Of a stretch of DNA of 39,939 bases, positions 4,192-38,197 are shown one piece after another. The translations under genes were made by a program, and so were the position numbers. The stretch is from a virus, in IMG/VR virus record IMGVR_UViG_3300010403_000038, positions 1 through 39,939 of that record; one strand, given 5' to 3'. Every line of letters starts with the position of its first letter. The stretch's first letter is position 1. The notes under the pieces were generated by a model. The model ran no database searches. It was not told the origin of the DNA and worked only from the letters and a program-made list of their open reading frames with translations.

Positions 4192-4589
4192 GGGCGACCA
4201 TCATCAGTCTCGGCCTGATCGACGAAGCGCTCGAAGACCTCATCGGCGCGCCGTTCTCGGCCGGCGCGCGCGGCCCCGACGCCTACGACTGCTGGGGGCT
4301 GGTGATCGCGCTCCGGCGCCAGCTCGGGCTACCGATACCCCCCGACTACGCGACAGGCTGCCTCACCCGCGATCAGGCCCACGCGCTGTTCGCCGCCGAT
4401 CGCCCGTCCGGCTGGCGCCGCGTGCCGCTGTCTCACGGGGGCATCCTGCTCGCCAACTGTGCGGCGCATGCCGGCGTGTACCTCGCGGGTCGGGTCGTCC
4501 ATGCGCAGGCGACAAGAGGCGTCGACTCCTGGACGCTCGGCCAATGGTCGGCCGCGTTCGGCGAGGTCGAGTGCTGGGAGGTCGTCTAG
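4188..4589 (+). CDS. NlpC/P60-family tail peptidase (gpK-like)
   Basis: 133 residues. The active-site Cys is Cys35 in DAYDCWGLV, with His94 in the AHAGVYL strand and a second His105 in VVHA, the Cys-His layout of NlpC/P60 papain-like peptidases. Phage members of this branch are carried in the tail tip and cut peptide crosslinks of peptidoglycan during DNA entry, as proposed for lambda gpK. The gene overlaps its neighbour by ATGA and is followed directly by the tip gene, the standard order. It is the only clear peptidoglycan hydrolase in the window. Confidence 0.88.
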   Translation: MRATIISLGLIDEALEDLIGAPFSAGARGPDAYDCWGLVIALRRQLGLPIPPDYATGCLTRDQAHALFAADRPSGWRRVPLSHGGILLANCAAHAGVYLAGRVVHAQATRGVDSWTLGQWSAAFGEVECWEVV

Positions 4590-7073
4590 ATGGCCGAGGT
4601 CGTTGTCCTTCGGAATCCACTCGACGCGAGTCGGCGGCGGCGTTGCCGTCTGGCCGATAGGATCAGCCTGCTGGACTGGGTCGAGCGCGAGGAGCCCGCG
4701 GGCGGCCACCTCACGCGCGCGGTCTATGTCAACGGCCGGCCCTGTACGGACGTCACCTACCGCACGCAGCCCGGCGACGAAGTGCTCGTCGCCTTCGCGC
4801 CCGGGGCGACCGTCGCGCCGTACATCGTTCAGGCCATCGTTGCCTTCGTCATCGGCTACGCGCTGAACACCTTGTTCGCGCCGAAGCGCCCGAACGCCGG
4901 CTCGTTGCCCTCGCCCTCTCAGGTCTACGGCATCGCGCCGCCGAAGAACGCGGCGAGGTTGGGCCAACCGATCCCCGTCATCTACGGGAGCGTGATCGCG
5001 CTACCCGACTTCGCCGCGCAGCCCTATACCTACTTCGCGCAGAACGACCAGTTCATGGACGCGCTGCTGTGCGTAGGCCTGGGCGACCACGACGTGACGG
5101 CGATCCTGTTCGCCGATACCTCGGGCGCGCCCCTCCCGCCCGACGTCGTACAGTGGCGCGCGTTCCGCCCGAGCGACCACGGCTCGCGCTTCGGCGTCGT
5201 ACAAGGCCAGACCGGCGTGCGCGAGAACGTGGTCACGAGTCCGGCGGTCGGGACGCAGGAGCTCTTCGGCCAGAAGGAGAGCGGGGTATGGGTAGCCTCG
5301 ACGTGGTATTGGGCGCTGTCGAACGTCCGCACGAGTACGGGTACCTCGGGCACGGTCCTGATCAACGCGACGACGCCCGCGGCCAAGATCGCGCTCCTGC
5401 CCGCGAACCCGCCGCTCGGGTCGCAGATCGGCTGCACGATCGGCTTCGACGGGTCTCTCTATACGCTCGGTACCTACACGGCCACCGCCTATTCGCCCGC
5501 GCAGACGCCCGCGGCCGGCGCGCTCATTCCCGCGCCCACGTTCGACACGACGCCGGGCATCAAGTGGGTCGGCCCCTTCGAGTGTTGCAAGGTGGGACAG
5601 ACGGGCACCTCGATCGAGATCGATTTCGTCCATCCGAAAGGGCTCTACGGGACGTCGCAGGGCAACATCGTTTTCGCAAGTGTGATGGTGCAGATGGTGT
5701 GGGAACAGATCGACGCGAACGGCAATGTGATCGCGGGTGGCGGCGGTAATGTCTACTTCAATCCAGGCGGTGCGACGACGACCCCGCAGCGGCGCACGTT
5801 CACGCAAGCCGTGCCGTCGGGGCGTTACCGCGTCAAGTGCGGGACCATCGGCAATGGCGGTGGCGACAGTACCGGGGTGGGACTGCAAGTGATTTGGGCA
5901 GGCCTGAAGTTCCAGCTCGATCCGCCGCCGGCCTCTCAGGTGGTCTACGGCAATGTGACGCTCGTCGCCGTCCGTCTGAAGGCGAGTAACGGGATCGCAG
6001 CAGACGCCGCCGCCTCGATGCGCTTTCGGGTGACGCGACGTCTGCCTCCCTTGGGCTCGGGGACGGCCGCGCCAACCTCGAACCCCGCGGATGCGTTTGT
6101 CGACATCCTCTGCGCGCCGTACGGCGGCGCGCGTCCCGTCACGGGCGACGAGATCGATCTCCCCGAGCTCACGGCGAGCCGCTCGGCGTGGGACGGCGCG
6201 AATGGATTCAACGCCGTCTTCGATCAGGCGAGTACGGTCTGGGAAGCGCTCGGCCTCGCGGTGCAGGCAGTCCACGCGGCGCCCCTGCCGGTGGGCTCGC
6301 GCATGTCGCTCATGCACGACGCGGTGCAGCCCGTACGCGCGACGCTCTTCACCGACGAGAGCATCGTCGCGGGGTCGCTGAAGGTCAACCAAACTTTCGA
6401 CCGGATCGGGACGCCCGCGGGCGTGCGCGTGAACTGGCGCGACCCGATCACGTTCGAGGAGGCCGTCGTCCTCCAGCCGCCGCTCGTCGCGGACTATTCG
6501 ACGATCGATCTGTTCGGCTGTACGTCGCTCACAGTCGCGCAGCAGCATGCAGCGCTGGCGCTGGCGAAGCGCGCCAAGCAGCGCAGCTCGATCGAGTTCG
6601 AGTGCGAGCTCGAAGGGCTGAACATCCTGCCCGGCGACCGTATCGGCGTCTCGGCGCGCATGGTGCATTGGGCGCAGAGCGCGCGGGTGGAGTCCGTCGA
6701 CGGGCTCGTCCTGACGCTCTCGAAGCCGCTCGTGTGGACGGCCGGCCAGCCGCATGCGGTGCTGCTGCGGACAGACGAGGGCACTGCGTGGCGCGTATTC
6801 GGCGTGACGCCCGGCGAGGCCGATAACATCCTCGTGCTGCCTTCGCTGCCGTTCATCATCACCGGCGCGAACGAGCCGCAGGAGGCAACGGCCATTTCCT
6901 TCGGCGTCCAAGACCACGAGGTGACCGACTGGATCGTGACGAAGGTAACCCCGAACGGAACGACCGTTACGCTCGAAGCAGTGAACTACGATCCGAGCAT
7001 CTACTCTGTCGCGGCCGACTTCACGCGCCGCATCCGGTACGCCCCCGACGTCGAGGAGCTGCGTCCATCATGA
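4590..7073 (+). CDS. Host specificity tail tip protein, TipJ/gpJ-like
   Basis: 827 residues. The N-terminal 70 residues (LRNPLDASRRRR to TQPGDEVLVAFAPG) form a small ubiquitin-like domain, followed by a hydrophobic helix (IVQAIVAFVIGYALNTLF) and then PKNAARLGQPIPVIYGS, the signature start of the tail hub domain in TipJ proteins. The rest is beta-rich, as in lambda gpJ. It forms the central tip of the tail and contacts the receptor. The start ATG directly follows the peptidase stop, with GGAGGT about 9 bases upstream. It is shorter than lambda gpJ (about 1,130 residues); receptor binding may be shared with the downstream fibre. Confidence 0.88.
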   Translation: MAEVVVLRNPLDASRRRRCRLADRISLLDWVEREEPAGGHLTRAVYVNGRPCTDVTYRTQPGDEVLVAFAPGATVAPYIVQAIVAFVIGYALNTLFAPKRPNAGSLPSPSQVYGIAPPKNAARLGQPIPVIYGSVIALPDFAAQPYTYFAQNDQFMDALLCVGLGDHDVTAILFADTSGAPLPPDVVQWRAFRPSDHGSRFGVVQGQTGVRENVVTSPAVGTQELFGQKESGVWVASTWYWALSNVRTSTGTSGTVLINATTPAAKIALLPANPPLGSQIGCTIGFDGSLYTLGTYTATAYSPAQTPAAGALIPAPTFDTTPGIKWVGPFECCKVGQTGTSIEIDFVHPKGLYGTSQGNIVFASVMVQMVWEQIDANGNVIAGGGGNVYFNPGGATTTPQRRTFTQAVPSGRYRVKCGTIGNGGGDSTGVGLQVIWAGLKFQLDPPPASQVVYGNVTLVAVRLKASNGIAADAAASMRFRVTRRLPPLGSGTAAPTSNPADAFVDILCAPYGGARPVTGDEIDLPELTASRSAWDGANGFNAVFDQASTVWEALGLAVQAVHAAPLPVGSRMSLMHDAVQPVRATLFTDESIVAGSLKVNQTFDRIGTPAGVRVNWRDPITFEEAVVLQPPLVADYSTIDLFGCTSLTVAQQHAALALAKRAKQRSSIEFECELEGLNILPGDRIGVSARMVHWAQSARVESVDGLVLTLSKPLVWTAGQPHAVLLRTDEGTAWRVFGVTPGEADNILVLPSLPFIITGANEPQEATAISFGVQDHEVTDWIVTKVTPNGTTVTLEAVNYDPSIYSVAADFTRRIRYAPDVEELRPS

Positions 7074-10476: not shown

Positions 10477-10656
10477 TTAAGGCCCGAGCCGCGTCGCGTG
10501 CTCGCACCAATAGCCGATCCACTTACGCAGGATCGGCGCGCAGCGCACGACGTGCCCTCTGCTGACGACGAAGCCCGCGACGAAGGCGCGCTGATCGACC
10601 TGATATACCCCGTCGGGTAGCGTCGTGCGAGGCCGATAGATCCAGGGGTGGGTCAC
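10477..10656 (-). CDS. Small hypothetical protein with GTG start
   Basis: 59 residues. The start is GTG at 10656, overlapping the stop of the upstream beta-helix gene (GTGA), so it is the last gene of that minus-strand operon. The sequence PDGVYQVDQRAFVAGFVV followed by CAPILRKWIGYW resembles a short protein widespread in proteobacterial phages (pattern 'lPdGvY.vd....aGfvv..g.v..CAPilr'). Function is unknown. It ends 4 bases from the convergent lipoprotein gene. Confidence 0.6.
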   Translation of the reverse strand: MTHPWIYRPRTTLPDGVYQVDQRAFVAGFVVSRGHVVRCAPILRKWIGYWCEHATRLGP

Positions 10657-11741
10657 ACGAGCCAGCGGTTCGCGATCGCCTGGAGCGGGCACCAGCGCCG
10701 GTGCGCGAAGTCTTTTAGGCCGCCGACGCCGGTAATGCGGTGCCCAGGCATCGCCGCGCGCGTCCGCCCGTTGAGGTAGTGGAGCGCGCGCTTCGCGGTA
10801 TAGCCACCGTGCACGCAGCCGCCCGTAACGATGACGTCTTCGTTCACGCCTGCGAACTCGTAGCCGTGCATCGGGCTGACGATTCCTGAGCCGTCGTCGT
10901 TCGCGCCGGCCCACATGAGGACGCCCGTCGCCGTGATGACAGAGGAATCTTCGGCGTAGAAGTGCGCTGACTGCCCCGCGTCGGTCAACCCCGCACGCCC
11001 CGGCCTTTCGCTCGCGACGGAGCCGCCGAATTGAATGTGGAGGCAACGCCGCATGAAGACCGAGGCCGTCGCCGCGCGATCCATCTGGACGCCGTCGAAG
11101 GTCCAGTCGCGCACCGGCGCGGAGCTATCCCCCGCGAGCCGGAAGTGCTCGCCTAACTTCGACCATTCGTAGCGCCCGGCGATCACGCGAACGTGGTTGG
11201 CGCCGGGGTGCGCGTAGACGCTCGTACCGCAGTCGGCGACGATACACCCGATCAGCTCGGAGTCCACCGGCGAGACGATGCCGTGACGGACAGCACGCAT
11301 CACGCGGCAATGCCGCGCGGTCAGCACCGCGCTGTAGGTCGAGCTCCCGCGTACCTTTCCGCCGATGCCGTCCAGAGGATCGACGATATACAGCAGGTCG
11401 AGGGTGAGGTGCTGCGAGCCGCCCGAAATCGCCGTACAGGTGCCATCGATGCAGTCGATCGTGAAACTCTTCAGCGTGACGCCGCGCCCGCGCGTCTGAT
11501 CTGTGAAATCGAAAATAGCCTCGGCGCCCGGTACTGGCACGAGACATGGCGTGTTGTACGACGCCGGCTCGACGTAGTTGGGGCCACCGGTTCCGTAGAG
11601 CGTCGAGCCGTTGCCGAAGCTCACATGCCCGATCGCGTAGGTGCAACCTCGTACGAGCTCGGCCGTGTTGCCGTCCTGCGCGAACGCGGCGTTGAATGCA
11701 GGGGTATCGTCCGCGCCCGAGGGTTCGAGGACGGTGTGCAT
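10653..11741 (-). CDS. Right-handed beta-helix (pectate lyase-like) protein
   Basis: 362 residues. The N-terminus (SGADDTPAFNAAFAQDG, then GSTLYGTGG) is the standard opening of pectate-lyase-superfamily beta-helix proteins and phage tailspikes. Repeated short strands with regular Gly/Asn/Val spacing follow to about residue 330. There is no signal peptide. The start directly follows the stop of the GH5-like gene. It probably binds or cuts a surface polysaccharide, but I cannot identify catalytic residues. It is coded opposite to, and away from, the tail operon, so if it is a virion protein it is expressed from a separate transcript. Confidence 0.6.
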   Translation of the reverse strand: MHTVLEPSGADDTPAFNAAFAQDGNTAELVRGCTYAIGHVSFGNGSTLYGTGGPNYVEPASYNTPCLVPVPGAEAIFDFTDQTRGRGVTLKSFTIDCIDGTCTAISGGSQHLTLDLLYIVDPLDGIGGKVRGSSTYSAVLTARHCRVMRAVRHGIVSPVDSELIGCIVADCGTSVYAHPGANHVRVIAGRYEWSKLGEHFRLAGDSSAPVRDWTFDGVQMDRAATASVFMRRCLHIQFGGSVASERPGRAGLTDAGQSAHFYAEDSSVITATGVLMWAGANDDGSGIVSPMHGYEFAGVNEDVIVTGGCVHGGYTAKRALHYLNGRTRAAMPGHRITGVGGLKDFAHRRWCPLQAIANRWLV

Positions 11742-16297: not shown

Positions 16298-18019
16298 TTA
16301 CGCCGGCATGGCTTTGCGACGCCCTTTGGAGTTCGCGCTACTCGACTTGCTCGTCGACTTGCCGCCGGGCTTTCCCGCCGGGCGATAGGTCTCCGAGAGC
16401 GCGTCCCAGGCGCCCGCCGCATCGATCTGGAGGATGCGCTCGACCCCGCCGCGCGCGCGCAGGACGAGGTGGGTGACGCCCTCGGGCGTCTCGCTCGGGC
16501 GGATGCCGCGCGAGAACAGGACGATCTGATCGAACGTGTCGATGACGAGTTGCCGCGCTTGCCGTCGCGCGTCGGGCTCCTGCGCGAGCACGCCTTTGGT
16601 CAGCTTACGGAACTTCGCCTCGACGCCGTTTAAGTCGGCGCGACTCGCGCGCGCGAGCGCGCGCTGCGCGGCGTCGACCGCTGCTTGCGCGGCGAGCTTG
16701 TCGGCTTCGAGCGCGAGCGCGCGCTTGGCGAAGGTAGGCAGGAGCTTCGAGTCCTCCGAGGCGAGTAGCAGGTCGGTCAGCTTGTTCAGTTGTTCGGCGA
16801 GCTTGGCCTCGCGCTCCTTGGCCGCGTCGAGCGCCGCGCGCGCCGCCGCGTCGCCTTCGCCGCCGTGCAGGCCGCGCAGGTTCATCAGGTCGGAGCAGAA
16901 CTCCATCACGGCGCGCTCCATCGGCTCGGCGGCGACCGAGTGCCCGGGTACCTTGCACTGGATCGCAGCGTTCATGCGCGCCGAGCAGCGCAGGCGCCGG
17001 TGCCCGAGCGGAATCAGCCCGCGCTCGTCGCGCTTGGAGCGCGTGTAGATCTGCGAGGTGATGGCCGAGCCGCAGTAGCCGCAGACGGTCGCGCCGAACC
17101 CGGTGAGCACATGCGGGATCGTTCCCTTGTTGCTGTAGGTCGGCGCGGCGCGCGCGGCGATCGCATCTTGCAGTGCGTGCCACTCGGCGAGCTTGAGGAG
17201 CGGGGGATAGTAGCCGTCGAGGACGTAGCGCTCGACGGGCCGCTCGGGCTCGCGCACCTCGACGACGCTCTGGCCGATCAGCGCGGGGTTGCGCAGCAGG
17301 CGCTCGACTTGCGCGACGTGCGAGCCGCGCGGGGTGAGCTTCAGGCCGCGTTCGGTGAGCACCTTCGAGACGCCGATCATCCCGTGGCCGGCGAGGTACA
17401 GGTCGACCGCGACGCGGGTGGCATGCGCGCACTCGGGATCGAGCTCGAAGCCGTCGCCGGCTCGGCGGAGCCATGCCGGCGGAAAGCCGCCGCGGATGTT
17501 GCGCTGGCTGCGGTCGCCGGCCAGCCACGCCTTACAGCGCAGACGGATCGCGTCGCGCCCGCGGGTGGCCTTGGTCTCGGATTCTTCGTTGGAGCGGATC
17601 ATCACGCCGAGCGACATGAACAAGTTCCCGCTGTTCTCGCGGATCGTCCGCTCGTTGTAGACCATGCGGTCCTTCGCCGTCACGATCGTGATGCCCTTGT
17701 CGATGATCTGCGCGAACTGGCCCATGGCCTTCAACGCCTTCTCACGCGAGAGGCGATCGAGCGACTCGACCACGAGCACCGAGCCGCGCGGCACCTTACC
17801 GGCTTCGACGTCGCGCAGGAACCCGCCGAGCTCGCCCTTCTGCGCGTGCCGGCCCTTGAAGGCGGAGACGCCCTGGTCGCGCAGCGTACGGTCGAGGGTC
17901 ATCCCGTGCTCGTCGGCCCAGCGCTGGGCGTACTCGGCTTGACGCTCCAGGCTCGTACCCTCGCGCTGCGCCATCGAGGAGTAGCGCGCGTAGCTGATGA
18001 CGAACGGTTGTGCTTGCAT
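16298..18019 (-). CDS. int: Large serine recombinase (probable phage integrase)
   Basis: 573 residues from ATG 18019. N-terminal resolvase domain: YARYSS with catalytic Ser14, a VVESLDRLSR strand carrying active-site Arg, and a conserved ENSGNLFMSLGVMI helix. A recombinase domain follows (about 150-280, GFPPAWLRR, LLRNPALIG), then a zinc ribbon (CGYCG, later two Cys) and a coiled-coil insert (about 395-470), the full large serine integrase architecture. It should integrate the phage by attP x attB crossing without host factors. The upstream 160 bases are AT-richer and are the natural place for attP. No clear ribosome-binding site precedes the ATG. Confidence 0.9.
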   Translation of the reverse strand: MQAQPFVISYARYSSMAQREGTSLERQAEYAQRWADEHGMTLDRTLRDQGVSAFKGRHAQKGELGGFLRDVEAGKVPRGSVLVVESLDRLSREKALKAMGQFAQIIDKGITIVTAKDRMVYNERTIRENSGNLFMSLGVMIRSNEESETKATRGRDAIRLRCKAWLAGDRSQRNIRGGFPPAWLRRAGDGFELDPECAHATRVAVDLYLAGHGMIGVSKVLTERGLKLTPRGSHVAQVERLLRNPALIGQSVVEVREPERPVERYVLDGYYPPLLKLAEWHALQDAIAARAAPTYSNKGTIPHVLTGFGATVCGYCGSAITSQIYTRSKRDERGLIPLGHRRLRCSARMNAAIQCKVPGHSVAAEPMERAVMEFCSDLMNLRGLHGGEGDAAARAALDAAKEREAKLAEQLNKLTDLLLASEDSKLLPTFAKRALALEADKLAAQAAVDAAQRALARASRADLNGVEAKFRKLTKGVLAQEPDARRQARQLVIDTFDQIVLFSRGIRPSETPEGVTHLVLRARGGVERILQIDAAGAWDALSETYRPAGKPGGKSTSKSSSANSKGRRKAMPA

Positions 18020-18142
18020 GATGATCGAGTCGGGTAAAAGTAACGGAGGAGCTACTAGTATATTTGAAGCCACGACCGCTAAGCCGAAGGTGGCCGCAAA
18101 TATAGCAGTGGCAGACCCTGTTACTTGTGCAGCAGTGCACGC
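18020..18142. other. Intergenic region upstream of the serine recombinase; candidate attP
   Basis: A locally AT-rich stretch in a GC-rich genome, with TACTAGTA (18053-18060), a TATACT-like -10 on the minus strand, and a perfect hairpin GTGCA-GCAG-TGCAC (18127-18140). Large serine integrases usually have attP immediately upstream of their gene. No defined attP core can be called from sequence alone. Confidence 0.35.
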
Positions 18143-18170
18143 AAAACGGCCCGGCATGGTGGCCGGGCCG
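18143..18170 (-). terminator. Rho-independent terminator of the 20.5-18.2 kb operon
   Basis: Perfect 9-base stem (CGGCCCGGC 18147-18155 with GCCGGGCCG 18162-18170), 6-base loop, followed on the minus strand by TTTT (18146-18143). It lies just after the last gene of the regulatory operon and insulates the recombinase gene. Confidence 0.75.
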
Positions 18171-30044: not shown

Positions 30045-30536
30045 GTGCCACCCGGAGTCAAGCCCAAGCCCCTCGCGCTCCACGTCGTCGAGGGCAACCT
30101 GAAAAAGATGGCGAAGCCGCGCCGCGAGAAGCACGAAAACAGTCCCCAGCCGTCGCTGGAGTTGAGAGGCCCTCCCGAGACGTTCAACGACGATCAGCGC
30201 GCGATCTGGGCCCGTTTGCAGGAGGATTGCGCCGTTGGGCTCCTCGCGCGTTCGGACTACGACATCCTCGTCAGCTACGTGCTACTGGTCGCCGCGCGCG
30301 ACAAGGCGATGAAACTCTTCATCGAGACCGGCTGTCAGGTACTCGTTAAGTCCAACGACTCAAACAACCGCATGCTCTCCAACCCCCTGATGCGCGAGAT
30401 CCGCCGCGTCCTAGAGCAGCTTCGCCCGCTACAGGTCGAGCTCGGCCTCACGCCCATGTCGCGCTCGCGTATCCAGGTCGCGAAGGCCCCGGAGGAGGAG
30501 GACGAGCTTGGGCGCTTCCTCACCCCCTCCGCGTAA
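30045..30536 (+). CDS. terS: Terminase small subunit, P27 family
   Basis: 163 residues from GTG 30045, with AGGAG 6 bases upstream. The P27 pattern is seen: an N-terminal GVKPKP and LHVVEGNLKK, then PPETFNDDQRAIWARL, then long helices (YDILVSYVLLVAARDKAM) and a C-terminal NPLMREIRRVLEQLRP. It binds the packaging site and regulates the large subunit. It overlaps the large subunit gene by 29 bases. Confidence 0.9.
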   Translation: MPPGVKPKPLALHVVEGNLKKMAKPRREKHENSPQPSLELRGPPETFNDDQRAIWARLQEDCAVGLLARSDYDILVSYVLLVAARDKAMKLFIETGCQVLVKSNDSNNRMLSNPLMREIRRVLEQLRPLQVELGLTPMSRSRIQVAKAPEEEDELGRFLTPSA

Positions 30537-32244
30537 CAGGCCAGCTCCCGTCGCCCGCCGCTGGCGCGACCCCGTCAGCCGCTACGCGCAGGCCGTCGTC
30601 TCGCGCCGCCTCCTCGCCGGCCCGCATGTCCGCGCCGCCTGCGCGCGCCACCTCGATGATCGACTCCACGCGCACGAGCGCGGCTGGACGTTCGACCTCG
30701 CCCTCGCCCAGCGCGCGCTCGACTTTTTCCCCGAAGTCCTCCGCCTCAACGCCGGGGAGTTCGAGGGCAAGCCCTTCCACCTCTCGCCCTGGGAAGCGTT
30801 CATCGTCGGCTCGCTGTTCGGCTGGCACGACGCCGAGGGCGCGCGCCGCTTTCGCGTCGCCTACGTCGAGACGGGCAAGGGCTCGGGGAAGTCGCCGCTC
30901 GCCGCGGGGATCGGGCTCCTCATGATGATCGCCGACGGCGAGGCGCGCTCCGAGGTTTACGCCGCCGCGTCGAAAAAGGATCAGGCGATGATCCTCTTCC
31001 GCGACGCCGTCGCGATGGTGCAGCAGTCGCCCGCGCTCTCCAAGCGCATCCGTCTCATCGGCGGCGTCGCCCCGTGGAACATGGTCTTCCGCGACTCGTT
31101 CTTCCGCCCGATCGCCGCCGACGACAAGCAGAGCGGCCCGCGCCCGCACTGCGGCCTTATCGACGAGATGCACGAGCACAAGGACGATACCGTCGTCGAG
31201 ATGATGCGCGCGGGCTTCAAGGGCCGGCGCTCGCCGCTCATGTTCATGATTACCAACGCGGGCGTCGATCGCCAGAGCGTGTGCTGGCGCTACCACGACC
31301 GCGCGATCAAGATCGCCGAGCGCATGCTCGACGACGATCGTTTCTTCGCCTACGTTTGCGCGCTCGACTCCGGCGAAGACCCGCTCCACGACGAGCGCTG
31401 CTGGCCGAAGACGAACCCGAACTTGGGCGTCAGCATCCGCGCCGACTACCTGCGCGATCAGGTCCTCGAAGCGCGCCAGATGCCGGGCAAGGAGTCCGTC
31501 GTCCGGCGCCTCCACTTCTGCCAGTGGGTCGACGCGTCGAGCCCCTGGATCTCGGGCGAGTCGTGGCGCGCCTGCGAGCGCACGCCGTCCGAGCCGTTCG
31601 TCTCGCGCTTCGCAGGCGCGCGCGTCACGCTCGCGGTCGACCTCTCGACCACGACCGACCTCACCGCGCTCGCGCTCGTCGTTGAAATCGAGGGCCGACT
31701 CTTCGCCGCCGTCGAGTTCTTCACGCCGGCCGACACGATGCGCAGCCGCGGCGAACGCGACGGCGTCGACTACGCGCTGTGGGCGCGCCAGGGCTACATC
31801 CACGCCGTTCCTGGCTCGACGCTCGAATACGGGCCGGTCGCCGCGCGTATTGCCGAGCTCGCCGAGGTCTTCGATATCGCCGAGCTCGTCTTCGATCGCT
31901 ACCGTATGAGCTACTTGAAGCGCGAGCTCGAAGAGATCGGCCTCATGCTCCCGCTCACCGAGCACCCGCAGACGTTCGTCAAGCCGCGCTCCTCGGCGCT
32001 GTGGATGCCCCAGTCGATCAACGAGCTCGAAGGCGCGATCATGCGCTCGGAGATCGAGATCGACCGTAACCCGTGCCTCACCTGGGCTGCCGCGAGCGCC
32101 GTCTGCGAGACTGACCTCCACCAGTCGCGCATCTTTTCCAAGCGCAAGGCCACGGGCCGGATCGACGGGCTCGTCGCTCTCGCGATGGCCGTCGGCGCCC
32201 GGCGCGCCCCGAGCTTGGTCAACGTCGGCGCGATGGTCGCCTAG
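30508..32244 (+). CDS. terL: Terminase large subunit, HK97-type
   Basis: 578 residues from TTG 30508, whose ribosome-binding site is a repeated GGAGGAGGAGG just upstream. Walker A ETGKGSGKS (121-129), Walker B LIDE (217-220), coupling motif region ITN (248-250), and a nuclease domain with LAVDLS (Asp378), FDRY (Asp463) and a late acidic segment. It is the ATPase that drives DNA into the head and the nuclease that cuts the concatemer. The HK97-type (Terminase_1) architecture is consistent with cos packaging. Confidence 0.95.
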   Translation: MGASSPPPRNRPAPVARRWRDPVSRYAQAVVSRRLLAGPHVRAACARHLDDRLHAHERGWTFDLALAQRALDFFPEVLRLNAGEFEGKPFHLSPWEAFIVGSLFGWHDAEGARRFRVAYVETGKGSGKSPLAAGIGLLMMIADGEARSEVYAAASKKDQAMILFRDAVAMVQQSPALSKRIRLIGGVAPWNMVFRDSFFRPIAADDKQSGPRPHCGLIDEMHEHKDDTVVEMMRAGFKGRRSPLMFMITNAGVDRQSVCWRYHDRAIKIAERMLDDDRFFAYVCALDSGEDPLHDERCWPKTNPNLGVSIRADYLRDQVLEARQMPGKESVVRRLHFCQWVDASSPWISGESWRACERTPSEPFVSRFAGARVTLAVDLSTTTDLTALALVVEIEGRLFAAVEFFTPADTMRSRGERDGVDYALWARQGYIHAVPGSTLEYGPVAARIAELAEVFDIAELVFDRYRMSYLKRELEEIGLMLPLTEHPQTFVKPRSSALWMPQSINELEGAIMRSEIEIDRNPCLTWAAASAVCETDLHQSRIFSKRKATGRIDGLVALAMAVGARRAPSLVNVGAMVA

Positions 32245-32256
32245 GCGTCGATCAGA

Positions 32257-32286
32257 TTGACACGCGTGATCGATCAGACGAACAAT
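32257..32286 (+). promoter_or_regulatory. Candidate promoter for the capsid gene
   Basis: Perfect TTGACA (32257-32262), 18-base spacer, AACAAT (32281-32286, four of six to consensus). It lies 12 bases after the large terminase stop inside a 247-base non-coding gap that contains no convincing gene. The repeat CGATCAGA occurs on both sides of the -35 box. Confidence 0.45.
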
Positions 32287-32491
32287 CGAGCCCGAACCGG
32301 ATAAACCCGACCCGGCGCGATGCTCAGCGACGCGCGCGCCACGGTGCCGCCTCTTCCGACGAGGGCGCACCATCTCATGATCCCGTCCGTCGCCCGTACG
32401 CGACCCGGCAAGGCCGAGCGTCAAGCGCAGCGCGAGCGTACGGGGCCGCTTTCCCCCTCGACCCCGATAAATCCGGCCCGCCAGGGCAACG

Positions 32492-34630
32492 GTGCGCCCG
32501 GCCATGCCCGCACCGGCCAGCGCTAGCCTCATCCGCGTCGAAAAGCGCGGGGGTCTTCCGGTCGCGCCGAGCTCCGCGCTCGGCCTACTCGGCGCGCACA
32601 CGATCGTCGACGATCAGATCCGGTTTCGCATCAGCAGCGAAGACCTCGACTACTACGGCGACGAAGTCGTCCAGGCCGGACTCGAATTTCCGGCGCAGCT
32701 CCCCGCAGTCGCCGATCACTCGCACACGCTCGACGCCTCGATCGGCGAGTGGCTCCACGTTGAGCGCGCGGGCCGCGAGACCTTCGCGACGCTCCGGCTG
32801 TTGCCCCTCGGCAAATCGCGCGGCGCCGATCTCGTCCGCGCGCTCCACGAGGGCGGCTTTCCGCTCGCCTCGTCGGTCAATTTCGACATCCACCCCTCGG
32901 ACATCGAGCCGATCACGCGCTCGGGTCCCGACGGCAAACCCCGGCGCGGCAAGCGCTACCGGCGCGGCAAGGTCGTCGAAGTCACGCTCACGCAATTCCC
33001 GGCGAACCCGGCGGCCATCGCCGTCGCGCGCTCGCTCGGGTTCTCAGACGACGAGGTCGGCGCGCTGTCGCGCACTCGGCCCCCCTCGCCGTCCCTCGCT
33101 CGCACCACTACGGCTGTCGCCGGTGCGCCCCCGAAGCCAACCACCATGACACTCGCCGAAATGATCGCCGCCGCGCAGGCGGCACACGAGGCCGCGCTCG
33201 CAACGCAGGCCACCGCCATCGCGACGCTCGAAGCCGATTCGGGCGAGGCGAACATGACCGCCGTCGCGCGCGCGACCTCCGAGGCCGACGCGCTCTTCGC
33301 GCGCCTGACCACGCTGCGCGCGGCCGAGACCGCCGCGACGCGGCGCGCCGCCGCCGCGCCGGCCCCCGCGCCCGCGCCCGCGCCGACGAGCTCCGTCTCA
33401 CGCGACCGAGCGAACGCCGCCGGAGACAACCGCTCGGCCGGCCTTCTGACCGAGCGCGGCGACCCCGAGGCCCCGGTCGGCTCGCGGCTCGCGCGGCTTG
33501 TAATGGCCGTCTCCGTCGCGCGCTCGACGCGGCGCAACTTCGTCGACGTCGCTGCCGAGCTCTTCGCGAGCGATCGCGATCGCGAGCTCATCAACGTCGC
33601 GCGCGCCGCCGTCGGCGCTGCCGATACGACGACCGCAGGATGGGCCGCGGAGCTCGTTCGTACCGAGACGCGCGCGCTACTCGACGCGACGCTCAACCCG
33701 AACTCGATCTGGCCGGCGCTCGCCGCGGCGGGCACCTCGTTGAATTTCAACGGCGCGCACTCGGTCGTCATCCCGCAGATGAACATCGGGACGACCGTCG
33801 GCGGCGCCTGGGTCGGCGAGGGCGGCGTCATCCCGCTCGTCAAGGGCTCGTTCGGCTCGAAGCGGCTCTACGCGTACAAGCTCGCGGGGATCATCCCGAT
33901 CACCAAGGAGCTCCAGCGCACGAGCGACCCGCAAGCCGTCGCGGTCATGAGCGAGATGCTCCGGCAGTTCCTCTCGAACCTGCTCGACGCGTCGATGATC
34001 GACGCCTCGGCCGAGGTCACCGGCGTTCGTCCGGCAGGTCTTCTCAACGGCGTCACGCCGATCGCCGGCGCCGCGGGCGGCGGCTACGAGGCGCTGCGCG
34101 CCGACCTCGAAGCCGTAACGAACGCGTTCACCGCGGCCGGCGTCGGCAACGGCAAGAACGTTCTACTCGTACCGGCGTCAAAGGCGTTCCGACTCTCGAC
34201 GATGGTCAACGCGCTCGGGCAGCTCATCTTTCCAAATGGCAGCGGTACGGTACTCGGCTTCCAGACGATCCCCTCGCAGTTCGTCGCAGCGAACACGGCG
34301 ATCGCCGTCGCGGCCGATAAGTTCGCGAGCGCGATCGACCCGCCCGAGCTCGATTCGAGCGAGGAGGCGACGCTCACCATGGCCGACGCGGGCGCAGCAG
34401 CGCCGACGCAGGCCGGCGACGCGGCAGGGGGTGGCGCGCTCGGTACCGCGAAGCAAGTCATCCCCGACGGCGGGATTCCGGTGGCGGGCGGCGCAGGCGC
34501 CTCGACGACGGGCTACACGGCGCTCTCGCTCTTCCAGTCGTGGCTCATCGGCCTGCGGCTCGTCATCCCGGCGAGTTACGGCGTGACGCGCGCAGGCGCA
34601 GTGCAGCAGCTCACGGGGATCACATGGTAG
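32492..34630 (+). CDS. Prohead protease - major capsid protein fusion (HK97 fold)
   Basis: 712 residues from GTG 32492; ATG 32504 is an alternative. Residues 25-195 form an S78-type prohead protease: FRISSEDLDYYGD, AVADHSH with His76, FPLASSVNF with Ser127/128, and the VTLTQFPANPAA strand. Residues about 196-335 are Ala/Pro-rich and helical like a scaffold (delta) domain. From about 345 the HK97 major capsid protein follows (LVRTETRALLDATLNP, WVGEGGVIPLVKGSFG, KLAGIIPITKELQ). The protease should cut itself and the scaffold away during maturation. An internal in-frame ATG at 33146 could give scaffold-capsid alone. Confidence 0.92.
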   Translation: MRPAMPAPASASLIRVEKRGGLPVAPSSALGLLGAHTIVDDQIRFRISSEDLDYYGDEVVQAGLEFPAQLPAVADHSHTLDASIGEWLHVERAGRETFATLRLLPLGKSRGADLVRALHEGGFPLASSVNFDIHPSDIEPITRSGPDGKPRRGKRYRRGKVVEVTLTQFPANPAAIAVARSLGFSDDEVGALSRTRPPSPSLARTTTAVAGAPPKPTTMTLAEMIAAAQAAHEAALATQATAIATLEADSGEANMTAVARATSEADALFARLTTLRAAETAATRRAAAAPAPAPAPAPTSSVSRDRANAAGDNRSAGLLTERGDPEAPVGSRLARLVMAVSVARSTRRNFVDVAAELFASDRDRELINVARAAVGAADTTTAGWAAELVRTETRALLDATLNPNSIWPALAAAGTSLNFNGAHSVVIPQMNIGTTVGGAWVGEGGVIPLVKGSFGSKRLYAYKLAGIIPITKELQRTSDPQAVAVMSEMLRQFLSNLLDASMIDASAEVTGVRPAGLLNGVTPIAGAAGGGYEALRADLEAVTNAFTAAGVGNGKNVLLVPASKAFRLSTMVNALGQLIFPNGSGTVLGFQTIPSQFVAANTAIAVAADKFASAIDPPELDSSEEATLTMADAGAAAPTQAGDAAGGGALGTAKQVIPDGGIPVAGGAGASTTGYTALSLFQSWLIGLRLVIPASYGVTRAGAVQQLTGITW

Positions 34631-34776
34631 CCGTCGCGCTCCTCGTCCTGCTGCTCGTCGCGTTCGTCGCGTTCGTACTCGCCGCGGCCGGGGTCGTCCA
34701 CTCGCGCGTCCAGCTCGTGCCGCTCGGCCTTGCGGCTTGCACGCTCGCCGTCCTCCTGCGCCTGTGGCCACCTTAA
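34624..34776 (+). CDS. Small membrane protein, 50 residues
   Basis: Starts at ATG 34624, inside the end of the capsid gene. Nearly all hydrophobic: ALLVLLLVAFVAFVLAAAG and LVPLGLAACTLAVLLRL form two predicted transmembrane helices. Too short for most holins but not excluded. It is coupled to the most highly translated gene and lies just before a terminator. Function unknown. Confidence 0.5.
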   Translation: MVAVALLVLLLVAFVAFVLAAAGVVHSRVQLVPLGLAACTLAVLLRLWPP

Positions 34777-34846
34777 TCGACGCGCGCGCTCCTGCGCGTG
34801 GCATGACCTCCGAGCTCAACCCAGCAGTTGCCGCGAAGGGGTTTCA

Positions 34847-34876
34847 CCCCCGGCCTCAAGCGCCGGGGGGATTTTT
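34847..34876 (+). terminator. Rho-independent terminator after the capsid gene
   Basis: Stem CCCCCGGC (34847-34854) with GCCGGGGG (34862-34869), 7-base loop, then a G-A and TTTTT (34872-34876). It lies between the capsid cluster and the rest of the structural operon and would reduce read-through, keeping capsid mRNA levels higher than portal and tail. Confidence 0.8.
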
Positions 34877-34898
34877 CTGAAAGAAGGGGCGCCCGACC

Positions 34899-35486
34899 AT
34901 GGCCCAGGCGATCTACCTCACCGACCCGGCCGTCGCGGCGGCCTACCACGTCTACCAGGGCGAATGGGCGAGCGTGACCGACGAGGCCGAGGCCGCGTGG
35001 CTCATCGCGAACCATCACGGCTACCCGATCGACGCGCAACGCGCGATGCCCGCCCCGGGCTTCGTTCACCCGGACGCCCCCTTGCCCTTCGTCCCCTATG
35101 CGGGGCCGGCGCCGCCGGTCGATCGCCCCTCGACGGTCACGGTCACGATCACGCCCGGCGCGCCCGGCGTCTTCGACGTCACCTTCGGCGGCGTCGCCGA
35201 TACAGCCGAGGCAACGGGGCATTTCACGATCCAAGACGACACCAGCGCGACGCTCGCCGACGTCACCTACACGCAACCCGCGGCGACCACGCTCAGCGGA
35301 TCGGCCGCCGCGCTGAACACAGCGCTCGCGCCCCACGCGCCGCCGCTCGTCCTGACGAAAGTCGGTGCGGTTCTCACGATCACCGGCACGAACCCGCCGA
35401 CCGTTGCGAGCGTGGTCGGCACACTCACCGTCCCCGCAGCGCCCGTCGCGGCGCGCCGACCAATCCTGCGTAGGCGGTCGCCATGA
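34899..35486 (+). CDS. Hypothetical virion protein with Ig-like C-terminal region
   Basis: 195 residues, GAAAGAAGGGG before ATG 34899. The N-terminal 60 residues are mixed helical (PAVAAAYHVYQGEWA, EAAWLIANHHGYP). Residues about 77-180 are Thr/Val/Gly-rich and all-beta (STVTVTITPGAPGVFDVTFG, VLTKVGAVLTITGT), like the Ig-like domains that decorate capsids or tails. Position after the capsid gene suggests a head decoration protein. Basic C-terminus (RRPILRRR). Confidence 0.5.
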   Translation: MAQAIYLTDPAVAAAYHVYQGEWASVTDEAEAAWLIANHHGYPIDAQRAMPAPGFVHPDAPLPFVPYAGPAPPVDRPSTVTVTITPGAPGVFDVTFGGVADTAEATGHFTIQDDTSATLADVTYTQPAATTLSGSAAALNTALAPHAPPLVLTKVGAVLTITGTNPPTVASVVGTLTVPAAPVAARRPILRRRSP

Positions 35487-35737
35487 GCGGCGCGCCGGTC
35501 GTCGTCTACGCGTTCGATCCGCTCGCGGACGGGGCCGTCGGGATGCTCGTCGTCTCGGCCGATCGCGCCGCACGACTCGTCGCCGAGCACCGCGTCGAGC
35601 TCGTGGGCGAGCATATCCACGCGCCGCTGCGCTTCGTCGTCGGCTCGGCCGCGAACGTCGCCGCGCGTGATGCGCTGCGCGTCGCCCGCGCGAGCTTGCC
35701 GCGCCCGCGCAAGGTCGCGCGCGTCGAGCAAGCTTGA
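35483..35737 (+). CDS. Hypothetical small protein of the head module
   Basis: 84 residues. ATGA overlap with the preceding gene. An alpha/beta profile (VVVYAFDPLADGAVGMLVVS, then ADRAARLVAEHRVEL) and a basic C-terminus (SLPRPRKVAR). No family recognised. Just before the portal gene, it could be a minor head component or an assembly factor; neither is shown. Confidence 0.5.
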   Translation: MSGAPVVVYAFDPLADGAVGMLVVSADRAARLVAEHRVELVGEHIHAPLRFVVGSAANVAARDALRVARASLPRPRKVARVEQA

Positions 35738-35747
35738 AGCCCCCACC

Positions 35748-37226
35748 ATGGCCGCGCTCGCTTCCTGGCTCGGCGCTCTCGGCTTCGGGAGGGCCAGCGG
35801 CAACCGCCAGCCCGAGGGCGGAAATCTGTTCACGGCCTGGGGGATCGACCGCACGCTCGGCGGCGCGCCGCACGCGCTCGATCCACTCGATGGCACGGGC
35901 TGGCAGCGCAACTTGGACAAGCTCGGAGCGGGGGTGCTCCCGGTCGTCGAGGCGGTCTACACGCTCTACGCGAACGCTTTCGCGCAGCTTCGCCCGCACC
36001 ACAAGCGCATCGACCTCGATACGGGCAAGGTCGTCGAGATCACGACCTCCGCGGCGTCGCGTCTACTCATCCAGCCGAACTCGTACGAGGCGGGCGCGAC
36101 TCTCTTCGCGAGCATCGCGTGCGATCTCCTCCAGGGCGAGGCGCTCGTCATCGCGTTACTCAACGATCGACAGGAGCCGGCCTCGTTACACTTGATTCCA
36201 CGTGGAACATGGACGCCGCGCATCGATCCCGAGACGCACGAGATCTATTACTTCGCAAGCAACGACGAATCGCTGCTGTTCTCGCCGCAGGTACAGGTCG
36301 CCGACGTCGAGCAGAACCGGCTCTTCGTCGTCCCGGCGCGCAATGCGCTGCACTTTCGCTGGCGTACGCCGCGCCACCGACTGATCGGCGAGTCGCCCTT
36401 CGCCGCCGCCGGGCTCGCTGCCGGGGTCAACGTCGCGCTCAGCCGGACGCAGTTGATGTTCGTCGAGAACATGCGACGCGTCTCGACCGTTCTCTCGACG
36501 GACACGATCCTCAACGGTCAGCAGATGAAGGAGCTTCGCGAGGCATTCGATCTCCAGGCCGCGAAGTGGGCGACCGGCGGCATCCCGATCCTCTCCGGGG
36601 GCTTGAAGATGTCGAGCGCGACGCTCGGCGCGATCGACGAGAGCGTGATCGCGAGCTTGCGGTTTTCCAACGAGGAGGTCGCGCGCTGCGCAGGGGTGCC
36701 CCCGCCGATGTACGGCGACCTCTCGGCCGGTGCGATCGTCAACTCCGAGACCCTCGTTCGGCATTGGCTCTCAGTCTCGCTCGGCGGCCTCATCGAGCGC
36801 TTCGAGCGCGAGCTCGATCGCCTCTTCCGGCTCGACGGTCGGCACGACTTGATCGAGATGTCCACCGAGGCGCTCCTGCGCTCCGATCTCGCCGCGCAGG
36901 CCGAGGCGCTCGCCAAGCTCGTCCAGGGCGGCGTCCAGACACCGGACGAGTCGCGCCGCTCGCTCGGCCTCGGGCCGGCGGCCGGCGGCGACCAGCTCTT
37001 CGTCCAGCGCCAGATGGTACCGATCACGCTCGCCGCGGAGCTCGCGCAGGCCGAGCTCGATAAGGCGACCGCACCGCCGCCACCGCCGCCGCCGCCTGAT
37101 CCGGCGTTCGTCGATCCGAACGCCGACCCGGCTGCCGATCCGAACGTTGATCCGGCGCTCGCCCAGGACGTCGCGCGCAGCGCGATGGAGCGCGCGCTTC
37201 GCGCCGCAAGAGAGGCTCGACCATGA
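35748..37226 (+). CDS. Portal protein, HK97 family
   Basis: 492 residues from ATG 35748. Recognisable HK97-portal segments: VVEAVYTLYANAFAQL, LLIQPNSYEAG, SLHLIPRGTWTPRID, ALHFRWRTP, RLIGESPFAAAGLAAGVNVA, and the core MSSATLGAIDESVIASLRFS followed by EEVARCAGVPPPMYGDLS. The C-terminal tail is Pro/Asp-rich (eight Pro in a row, then repeated N-(A/V)-D-P). It forms the 12-fold ring through which DNA enters. It is coded after the capsid gene, not before it as is usual. Confidence 0.93.
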   Translation: MAALASWLGALGFGRASGNRQPEGGNLFTAWGIDRTLGGAPHALDPLDGTGWQRNLDKLGAGVLPVVEAVYTLYANAFAQLRPHHKRIDLDTGKVVEITTSAASRLLIQPNSYEAGATLFASIACDLLQGEALVIALLNDRQEPASLHLIPRGTWTPRIDPETHEIYYFASNDESLLFSPQVQVADVEQNRLFVVPARNALHFRWRTPRHRLIGESPFAAAGLAAGVNVALSRTQLMFVENMRRVSTVLSTDTILNGQQMKELREAFDLQAAKWATGGIPILSGGLKMSSATLGAIDESVIASLRFSNEEVARCAGVPPPMYGDLSAGAIVNSETLVRHWLSVSLGGLIERFERELDRLFRLDGRHDLIEMSTEALLRSDLAAQAEALAKLVQGGVQTPDESRRSLGLGPAAGGDQLFVQRQMVPITLAAELAQAELDKATAPPPPPPPPDPAFVDPNADPAADPNVDPALAQDVARSAMERALRAAREARP

Positions 37227-38197
37227 TGACGCCCGAAGAGCGCGCCGGGATGGCCGCGGCGATCAACGAAGCGATCGCACTCGGCTGCGCCGCCGTGCGC
37301 GAGGCGTGCGCGCGCGAACTCGCGGACGTTCGGCGCTCGACGGCCGAGGAGCTCGCCGCGGTACGCGCGCACGCCCAGCGCGCCGACGAGCGCGCCGAGG
37401 CGCTCCAGCGCGAGCTCGACGCGACGCGCGAGCTCGCCGCGCAGGCGCCGATTCAGACGATGCTCGTCGACGCCGTGGGGGATCTCCACGTCGTGCAGCG
37501 TGGGGGCGTCACGACGACAGCGAACCTCGCAGCGCTCGGCACTCGGATCGCCGCCGCAGTCGACTCCGGCGTTGGCGCACTCGGCGCGAGCCTCCGCGCC
37601 GAGGTCGGCGCGCACGTCGCGCGCGAGGTGATGCGCTTCGGCAGCGCCCCGCGCTGGAGCCGTAGCGCGTTCTACGGTGAGGGCGCCGTCGTCTCGTGCT
37701 ACAACGGCCGCACCTACGAGCTCGCGCCCGGCACGCGCGCGTCGATCGCGCAGGAGCCGGGCGAGCACCCCGAGGTCTGGCAGCGCATCGGCTCGCACGG
37801 TCTGCGCGTGATGAAGTCCAAGCCCGCGGTTCCCGAGCCGGGCGACGTCTACACCGAGGGCGAGTCGCGTTTCATCTTCGACGGCGAGACGACGACGCTC
37901 TTCGTCCCGCGCGCGACCAAGCAAAGCGACATCGACCGCAGCTTCAAGGCCGCGAACTCGCTCGCCGCATCGGCGTTCGAGCACGCGACGCGCGCCGAGC
38001 GCATGGCCGAGAGCCACGAGGCGCGGCTCGACGTAGTCGAGCGCGAGGCGTCGAACAATGCGCTGTGGATCGCCGAGGAAGGCGAAGCCGCCGTCCTGCG
38101 TTCCGCGACGACCGAGGCCTGGGTCGCCGAGCGCGCCGACGAGATCGACGCGGCGCTCCTCGACCTGCCGCAGCCCGAGGGGGCGAGTGCATCATGA
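37223..38197 (+). CDS. Head-module protein with coiled coil and CBM5/12-like domain
   Basis: 324 residues. Residues 1-75 form an Ala/Glu/Arg coiled coil (VRREACARELADV type heptads are clear throughout). Residues about 145-190 (FYGEGAVVSCYNGRTYEL, later PEVWQRIGS) resemble the chitin-binding CBM5/12 fold: a 'G..V.y.g..Y.a....PG..p..W' pattern. The last 100 residues are helical again. It lies between portal and head-tail connector genes and overlaps the portal gene by ATGA. It may be a minor head or decoration protein able to bind glycans; this is inference. Confidence 0.5.
   Translation: MMTPEERAGMAAAINEAIALGCAAVREACARELADVRRSTAEELAAVRAHAQRADERAEALQRELDATRELAAQAPIQTMLVDAVGDLHVVQRGGVTTTANLAALGTRIAAAVDSGVGALGASLRAEVGAHVAREVMRFGSAPRWSRSAFYGEGAVVSCYNGRTYELAPGTRASIAQEPGEHPEVWQRIGSHGLRVMKSKPAVPEPGDVYTEGESRFIFDGETTTLFVPRATKQSDIDRSFKAANSLAASAFEHATRAERMAESHEARLDVVEREASNNALWIAEEGEAAVLRSATTEAWVAERADEIDAALLDLPQPEGASAS

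Follow-up and report, generated by a model that had tools for sequence, protein, structure and literature searches.

A conserved in-frame start codon at the protease border of a fused prohead protease-capsid gene in tailed phages

The fused gene and its genomic setting

The window, i.e., the whole stretch of DNA analyzed here, is a virus contig whose record spans 39,939 bases with 67.8% G+C. On its plus strand, positions 32492-34630 form a single stop-free frame of 712 codons, which lies within a run of head genes (30508-37226) in the order terminase, protease/capsid, two small unknown genes, and portal. The features of this region are as follows:

30508..32244, plus strand: terminase large subunit, directly upstream of the fused gene (PHROG/Pfam profile matches)
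32492..34630, plus strand: fused gene for prohead protease, linker, delta-like domain, and HK97-fold major capsid protein (712 aa)
32615..33064, plus strand: protease domain, residues ~42-191 (alignments, AlphaFold domain)
33059..33142, plus strand: disordered linker between protease and delta-like domain, residues 190-217 (pLDDT <50), within which the 5' portion of the internal start region also lies
33116..33165, plus strand: weakly structured RNA spanning the internal start (MFE -6.9; gene mean -17.0, sd 4.5)
33146..33148, plus strand: internal in-frame ATG, M219, the proposed start of a protease-less capsid protein of 494 aa (family conservation)
33152..33355, plus strand: delta-like (scaffold) domain at residues 221-288, modelled as two long helices with pLDDT mostly 92-96
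33374..33463, plus strand: second disordered linker, Pro/Ala-rich, residues 295-324 (AlphaFold model)
33479..34627, plus strand: HK97-fold major capsid protein domain, residues 330-712 (PF05065, Foldseek)
35667..37226, plus strand: portal protein, downstream of the capsid gene (PHROG/Pfam profile matches)

Several other genes of the record deserve mention. A large serine-type integrase is encoded on the minus strand at 16298-18157 (matches to the phrog_95 integrase and the phrog_125 DNA invertase), and the phage is therefore probably temperate. Directly before the terminase, the segment 27036-29919 carries genes for a ParB-like protein, a DNA methyltransferase, a methyltransferase-domain protein that matches a PHROG named 'tRNA methyltransferase', and an HNH endonuclease. 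The gene after the portal (37223-38197) is without a PHROG and has a weak, below cut-off match to the carbohydrate-binding module CBM_5_12, and a tail-fibre-like protein (phrog_6518) is encoded on the minus strand at 10653-11741, apart from the plus-strand tail genes.

The length of the frame is by itself no proof of a gene because long ORFs come cheaply at such a G+C content, as exemplified by an antisense ORF of 693 codons running over the terminase (30520-32601). We regard the frame as genuine because of its full-length homology and its fused clade mates. A single match to PHROG 617 ('major head protein', 626 columns) aligns residues 41-636 with profile positions 26-593 (E 6.3e-47) and thereby covers both the protease and the capsid domains, which rules out a chance frame arising from the high G+C. 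In an IMG/VR search, the five clade mates L009, L010 (the contig of L002), L011, L012, and L013 had an identical fused layout at 52-65% identity and, in total, we compared 93 fused genes drawn from isolates, prophages, and metagenomes. The notion that a missed stop or an assembly frameshift has joined two genes finds some encouragement in the existence of split relatives, of which the nearest (L015 and L016, just outside the clade of the window) have a gap of merely 10 bases, but it is already refuted by the fused frame in five clade mates on different contigs and by the 93 fused genes overall, so that its probability is next to nil. The original prediction, in which protease, scaffold-like linker, and capsid make up one 712-residue frame, is thus upheld, and the sequencing error for which it advised a check (a frameshift or stop between residues 195 and 345) is absent given the clade mates. 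By homology, the gene belongs to the fused protease-capsid family PHROG 617. Its candidate 5' starts are GTG 32492, the first, and ATG 32504, the alternative, both with a weak Shine-Dalgarno sequence, and a search of the record with PF05065 found no capsid gene besides this one.

The domain anatomy was derived from profiles, alignments, and an AlphaFold model built on a 38-sequence alignment of the window protein and related loci (mean pLDDT 73, pTM 0.48, a value at which the relative placement of the domains carries no meaning). The C-terminal domain has, as judged from profile and model, the HK97 fold: Pfam PF05065 (Phage_capsid) matches residues 432-605 above cut-off (E 8.7e-11), and Foldseek pairs this part with the capsids of HK97, Bxb1, D3, gene-transfer agents, and others with E down to 1e-11. 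The N-terminal domain (~42-191) is beta-rich in the model. The Pfam S78 profile (PF04586) gave no match to the window protein even at E 10; it does match four of the six members of alignment A1 (best E 1.2e-10). Residues H76 (32717-32719), S128 (32873-32875), and E163 are invariant in the 38 to 42 aligned sequences, as is the PAN motif (residues 170-172) in the aligned protease domains. By this kinship and the conserved His and Ser, to which we assign a putative catalytic role, the domain is an S78-type prohead protease. Met 219 lies past the disordered linker, two residues ahead of the first delta-like helix. The helical domain (221-288) is flanked by disordered linkers on both sides, and its cleavage from the mature capsid protein is predicted; the probable region of this maturation cleavage is the second linker (295-324), just past which the alignment has an invariant glycine, G330.

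The start codon at the domain border across the family

Using the family alignment, we sampled 80 loci from IMG/VR, 80 loci from bacterial genomes, and phage records. The ATG at 33146 (residue 219, in frame) had been singled out beforehand as critical, and this emphasis was well placed, as an in-frame start codon stands at the N terminus of the delta domain in 93/93 fused genes, the window included (91 ATG and 2 GTG); the probability of an ATG in a random 11-codon stretch of the same genes is 0.20. The two GTG cases (L065 and L158), both with a Shine-Dalgarno sequence, are telling because GTG encodes Val inside the fusion and yet is a valid start. When the genes were clustered at 50% identity into 16 lineages, the start codon was present in 16/16 and a Shine-Dalgarno energy of -5 kcal/mol or lower in 14/16.

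The Shine-Dalgarno sequence was assessed as the duplex energy with the anti-Shine-Dalgarno in 59 genes that are non-redundant at 80% identity. The median at the internal start was -7.0 kcal/mol, against -2.5 kcal/mol at 816 other ATGs lying in frame in these genes, and 88% of the internal starts reached -5 kcal/mol or lower compared with 18% of the other ATGs. The internal sites match or exceed in strength the genuine starts of separately encoded capsid proteins in the split relatives (median -7.0 versus -5.8). Shuffling synonymous codons with the amino acids kept gave a combined p of 1.4e-6. Only 20% of the genes fell below 0.05 singly, because the residues found there (often KEG, EEG, or QEG) by themselves dictate part of the motif. 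Across 606 gene pairs of 55-93% identity, positions encoding the same residue shared the codon in 87% of cases at offset -4 and in 74% at offset -5, the two codons with the Shine-Dalgarno sequence; the gene-wide figure was 50%. Among 59 genes, the pentapeptides preceding the start are of 58 kinds, and the Shine-Dalgarno core is found in all three codon phases, which is indicative of a constraint on nucleotides rather than on the peptide; a conserved upstream protein motif, e.g., a cleavage site, is for the same reasons unlikely.

In 58/59 genes, the RNA at the internal start (-30 to +20) had less structure than the gene has on average, with a mean z of +1.4. Using a crude start index (Shine-Dalgarno energy minus local folding energy), we ranked all in-frame starts of each gene, about 32 in the median; the internal one came first in 46/59 genes and among the top three in 57/59, and it outscored the best 5' start in 78% of the genes. 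The counts behind these results are not independent events, the tests share data, and relatedness is only partly corrected for in the statistics. In view of this evidence from sequence comparison, a conserved start codon with a ribosome-binding site at the domain border is a property of PHROG 617 at the family level, and internal initiation is very probable for the fused family as a whole.

A quick tree of the capsid parts comprised 159 capsid proteins, 93 fused and 66 split, a proportion which gives no estimate of natural frequency as the sampling used fused seeds. In the split relatives, the separate capsid gene begins at the position equivalent to the internal start; little separates the protease stop from the capsid ATG, the two very often forming an ATGA overlap, and a Shine-Dalgarno sequence usually lies just upstream. 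The fused/split state changes 26 times on the tree, at least 14 of these changes being forced by well supported branches. Such an easy interchange is expected if fused and split genes use a common start and yield a common product. On the tree, the window groups inside a fused clade with L009, to which it is 69% identical in the columns compared. In one of the records, that of Stenotrophomonas phage SOVA965 (L006, 2892-4297), the annotation divides the capsid protein between two overlapping ORFs beside a separate protease, which we attribute to a frameshift or sequencing error.

Internal initiation in the window phage and its interpretation

At ATG 33146 of the window the duplex energy is -0.2 kcal/mol and the Shine-Dalgarno sequence is nearly absent. 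The internal starts of the clade mates have -5.9 (L009), -3.2 (L010), -6.8 (L011), -5.3 (L012), and -6.1 kcal/mol (L013), and most other genes of the window have a clear Shine-Dalgarno sequence. Few parts of the gene have RNA as weakly structured as that around 33146 (z +2.2). On the start index, where lower is better, 33146 scores 6.7, GTG 32492 scores 13.4, and ATG 32504 scores 20.1; 33146 ranks third of 11 in-frame starts, and ATG 33161, five codons downstream in the same open region, is slightly better at 4.4. Initiation in open RNA without a Shine-Dalgarno sequence is possible. The claim of an internal start is hence weaker for the window phage than for the family, because there is almost no Shine-Dalgarno sequence, though the RNA structure is low; judged from these features, internal initiation in this phage is nonetheless likely. 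The in-frame ATG at 33254 (M255) has a stronger Shine-Dalgarno sequence than 33146 (-7.2) but sits in structured RNA (MFE -18.6), and L010 reads I at this residue. M255 is therefore the less likely internal start, and its role as a replacement start in the window phage is a possibility.

The best explanation, to which we give a probability of roughly 0.8, is that the gene consists of two nested in-frame cistrons, one for a protease-delta-capsid protein and the other for a delta-capsid protein without protease. Ribosomes starting at 32492 or 32504 would make the fusion in a small amount and those starting at ATG 33146 would make delta-capsid alone in a larger amount, with the ratio of the products depending on how strong each start is relative to the other. 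Both products would co-assemble via their shared delta and capsid parts, so that a minority of fusion subunits brings the protease covalently into the prohead at less than 1:1. The protease would then release itself and trim the delta domains. Actual initiation, co-assembly, order of cleavage, and ratio are all inferred from sequence here. The ratio of protease to capsid is thus probably not fixed at 1:1; the family evidence (start codon, Shine-Dalgarno sequence, and low RNA structure) makes use of the internal start the more likely and 1:1 the less likely case. The original prediction had a ratio of 1:1 unless the internal ATG or processing altered it; this escape clause stands while the fixed ratio falls, and its figure of up to 415 proteases in a T=7 prohead becomes an upper limit under the less likely reading.

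That less likely reading is a pure polyprotein, in which the full-length fusion alone is made at 1:1 and the protease excises itself during assembly. The conserved active-site residues and the nearly absent internal Shine-Dalgarno sequence of the window agree with it, and according to PMC8306868 the capsid polyprotein of PAJU2 has been proposed to be fused and autocatalytically cleaved. It leaves unexplained, however, why all 93 fused genes, two of them with GTG, keep a start codon, why the Shine-Dalgarno sequence is conserved at synonymous sites within locally low RNA structure, and why split relatives start the capsid protein at the equivalent codon; we consider it unlikely. Conceivably, the internal start could also be a leftover of recent and repeated gene fusions which is no longer needed. 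The frequent interchange of fused and split states implies that some fusions are recent, and the window has kept its ATG while its Shine-Dalgarno sequence is nearly gone. Against such a relic, the start is retained across deep fused groups (the 16 lineages above), and synonymous conservation peaks at the very Shine-Dalgarno codons, which in a relic would decay like the surrounding linker residues. This explanation is therefore improbable, even more so than the polyprotein.

The two nested cistrons would bear on an issue that the cited fusion papers do not address. If the fusion were the only product, every capsid subunit would carry a protease; the conserved internal start, if used, explains how this excess is avoided, as far more shell than protease would be made. 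If this is true, gene callers hide the real capsid gene within a larger one, and the annotation of many phage and prophage genomes gives the capsid precursor, before processing, a wrong mass and a wrong N terminus.

Comparison with known fusions and nested genes

The fusion of protease and capsid is itself already known. As a departure from the usual two genes it is real, as had been supposed, but it is not novel, given the precedents in PHROG 617, PAJU2, MD8, Gifsy-2, and Arthrobacter phages. The annotations speak for themselves: PAJU2 gp03 is a 'prohead protease fused capsid protein', JLK-2012 PP_55 is a 'putative major head protein/prohead proteinase', and PHROG 4523 bears the name 'major head and protease protein'. 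Like the window, PAJU2 and JLK-2012 (both PHROG 617) have one gene for an S78-type protease and an HK97 capsid protein between terminase and portal, with the capsid gene ahead of the portal, unlike the order in HK97. Their proteins align with the window protein over the full length, but at only 25-29% identity, and the Shine-Dalgarno sequence at the internal start is strong in PAJU2 (-10.8) whereas that of the window is nearly bare.

Other fusions have been described as well. For Gifsy-2, a 'tripartite capsid gene' is named in the title of the 2010 paper by Effantin et al., listed among the references of PMC8538268. A single coding region of this phage reportedly comprises the protease, a central domain, and the capsid protein, and the capsid assembles as T=7; its protease is said to be ClpP-like, unlike that of the window. 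In Pseudomonas phage MD8, protease, scaffold, and capsid protein lie within one gene, gp5 (PMC8508860); the gene belongs with that of F10 to PHROG 133, its protease is ClpP-type, and the fusion is unrelated to that of the window. Fusions of the MD8 type (L171 at 4371-6452 and L239-L262) have an ATG and a Shine-Dalgarno sequence at the protease/scaffold border in 16/16 sampled cases, down to 60% identity, although the codon-level argument is weaker for this family because the residues near its internal start are conserved as well. Fused protease-capsid genes also occur in Arthrobacter clusters AM, AU, and AN and in Rhodococcus phage RRH1 (PMC5513430), and a thaumarchaeal provirus has a prohead protease fused with the capsid protein (PMC6563490). 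Of these, the Arthrobacter phage Maggie, its near relatives, and RRH1 have an internal ATG with a Shine-Dalgarno sequence near the border and Gordon, likewise from the Arthrobacter clusters, has a strong candidate, while the 43%-identical relative L180 shows no such start at the threshold used; these fusions fall into PHROGs other than that of the window (2263 and 3270), and few independent sequences were compared.

We lean towards the view that protease-capsid 'fusion' genes of tailed phages are generally nested genes with two products, that unrelated fusions have each kept the ribosome-binding site at the border, and that the protease would be dosed via initiation on a minority of the subunits. 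The border start shared by PHROG 617 (S78-type), PHROG 133 (ClpP-type), and perhaps PHROG 2263 is suggestive of such a general rule. Our literature search, beyond the reach of which lay the original PAJU2 and Gifsy-2 papers, found no account of an internal start in such fusions, and a conserved nested capsid start inside a fused gene seems to be undescribed.

The usual arrangement among HK97-like phages is, as originally stated, that of two genes: HK97 itself encodes prohead protease (gp4) and capsid protein (gp5) separately, the latter with a delta domain of ~100 residues (PMC8508860). A prohead protease and a delta domain are thus common to HK97 and the window, which differ in having two genes and one, respectively.

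A nested in-frame start behind a protease is known in principle. In the C/Nu3 genes of lambda (and I/Z of Mu), an in-frame start behind the protease yields a C-terminal product without protease in excess. The nested product of lambda is a scaffold, whereas that of the window would comprise a scaffold-like domain and the capsid protein itself. In essence, if the two nested cistrons are real, the principle of lambda C/Nu3 extends from the scaffold to the capsid protein.
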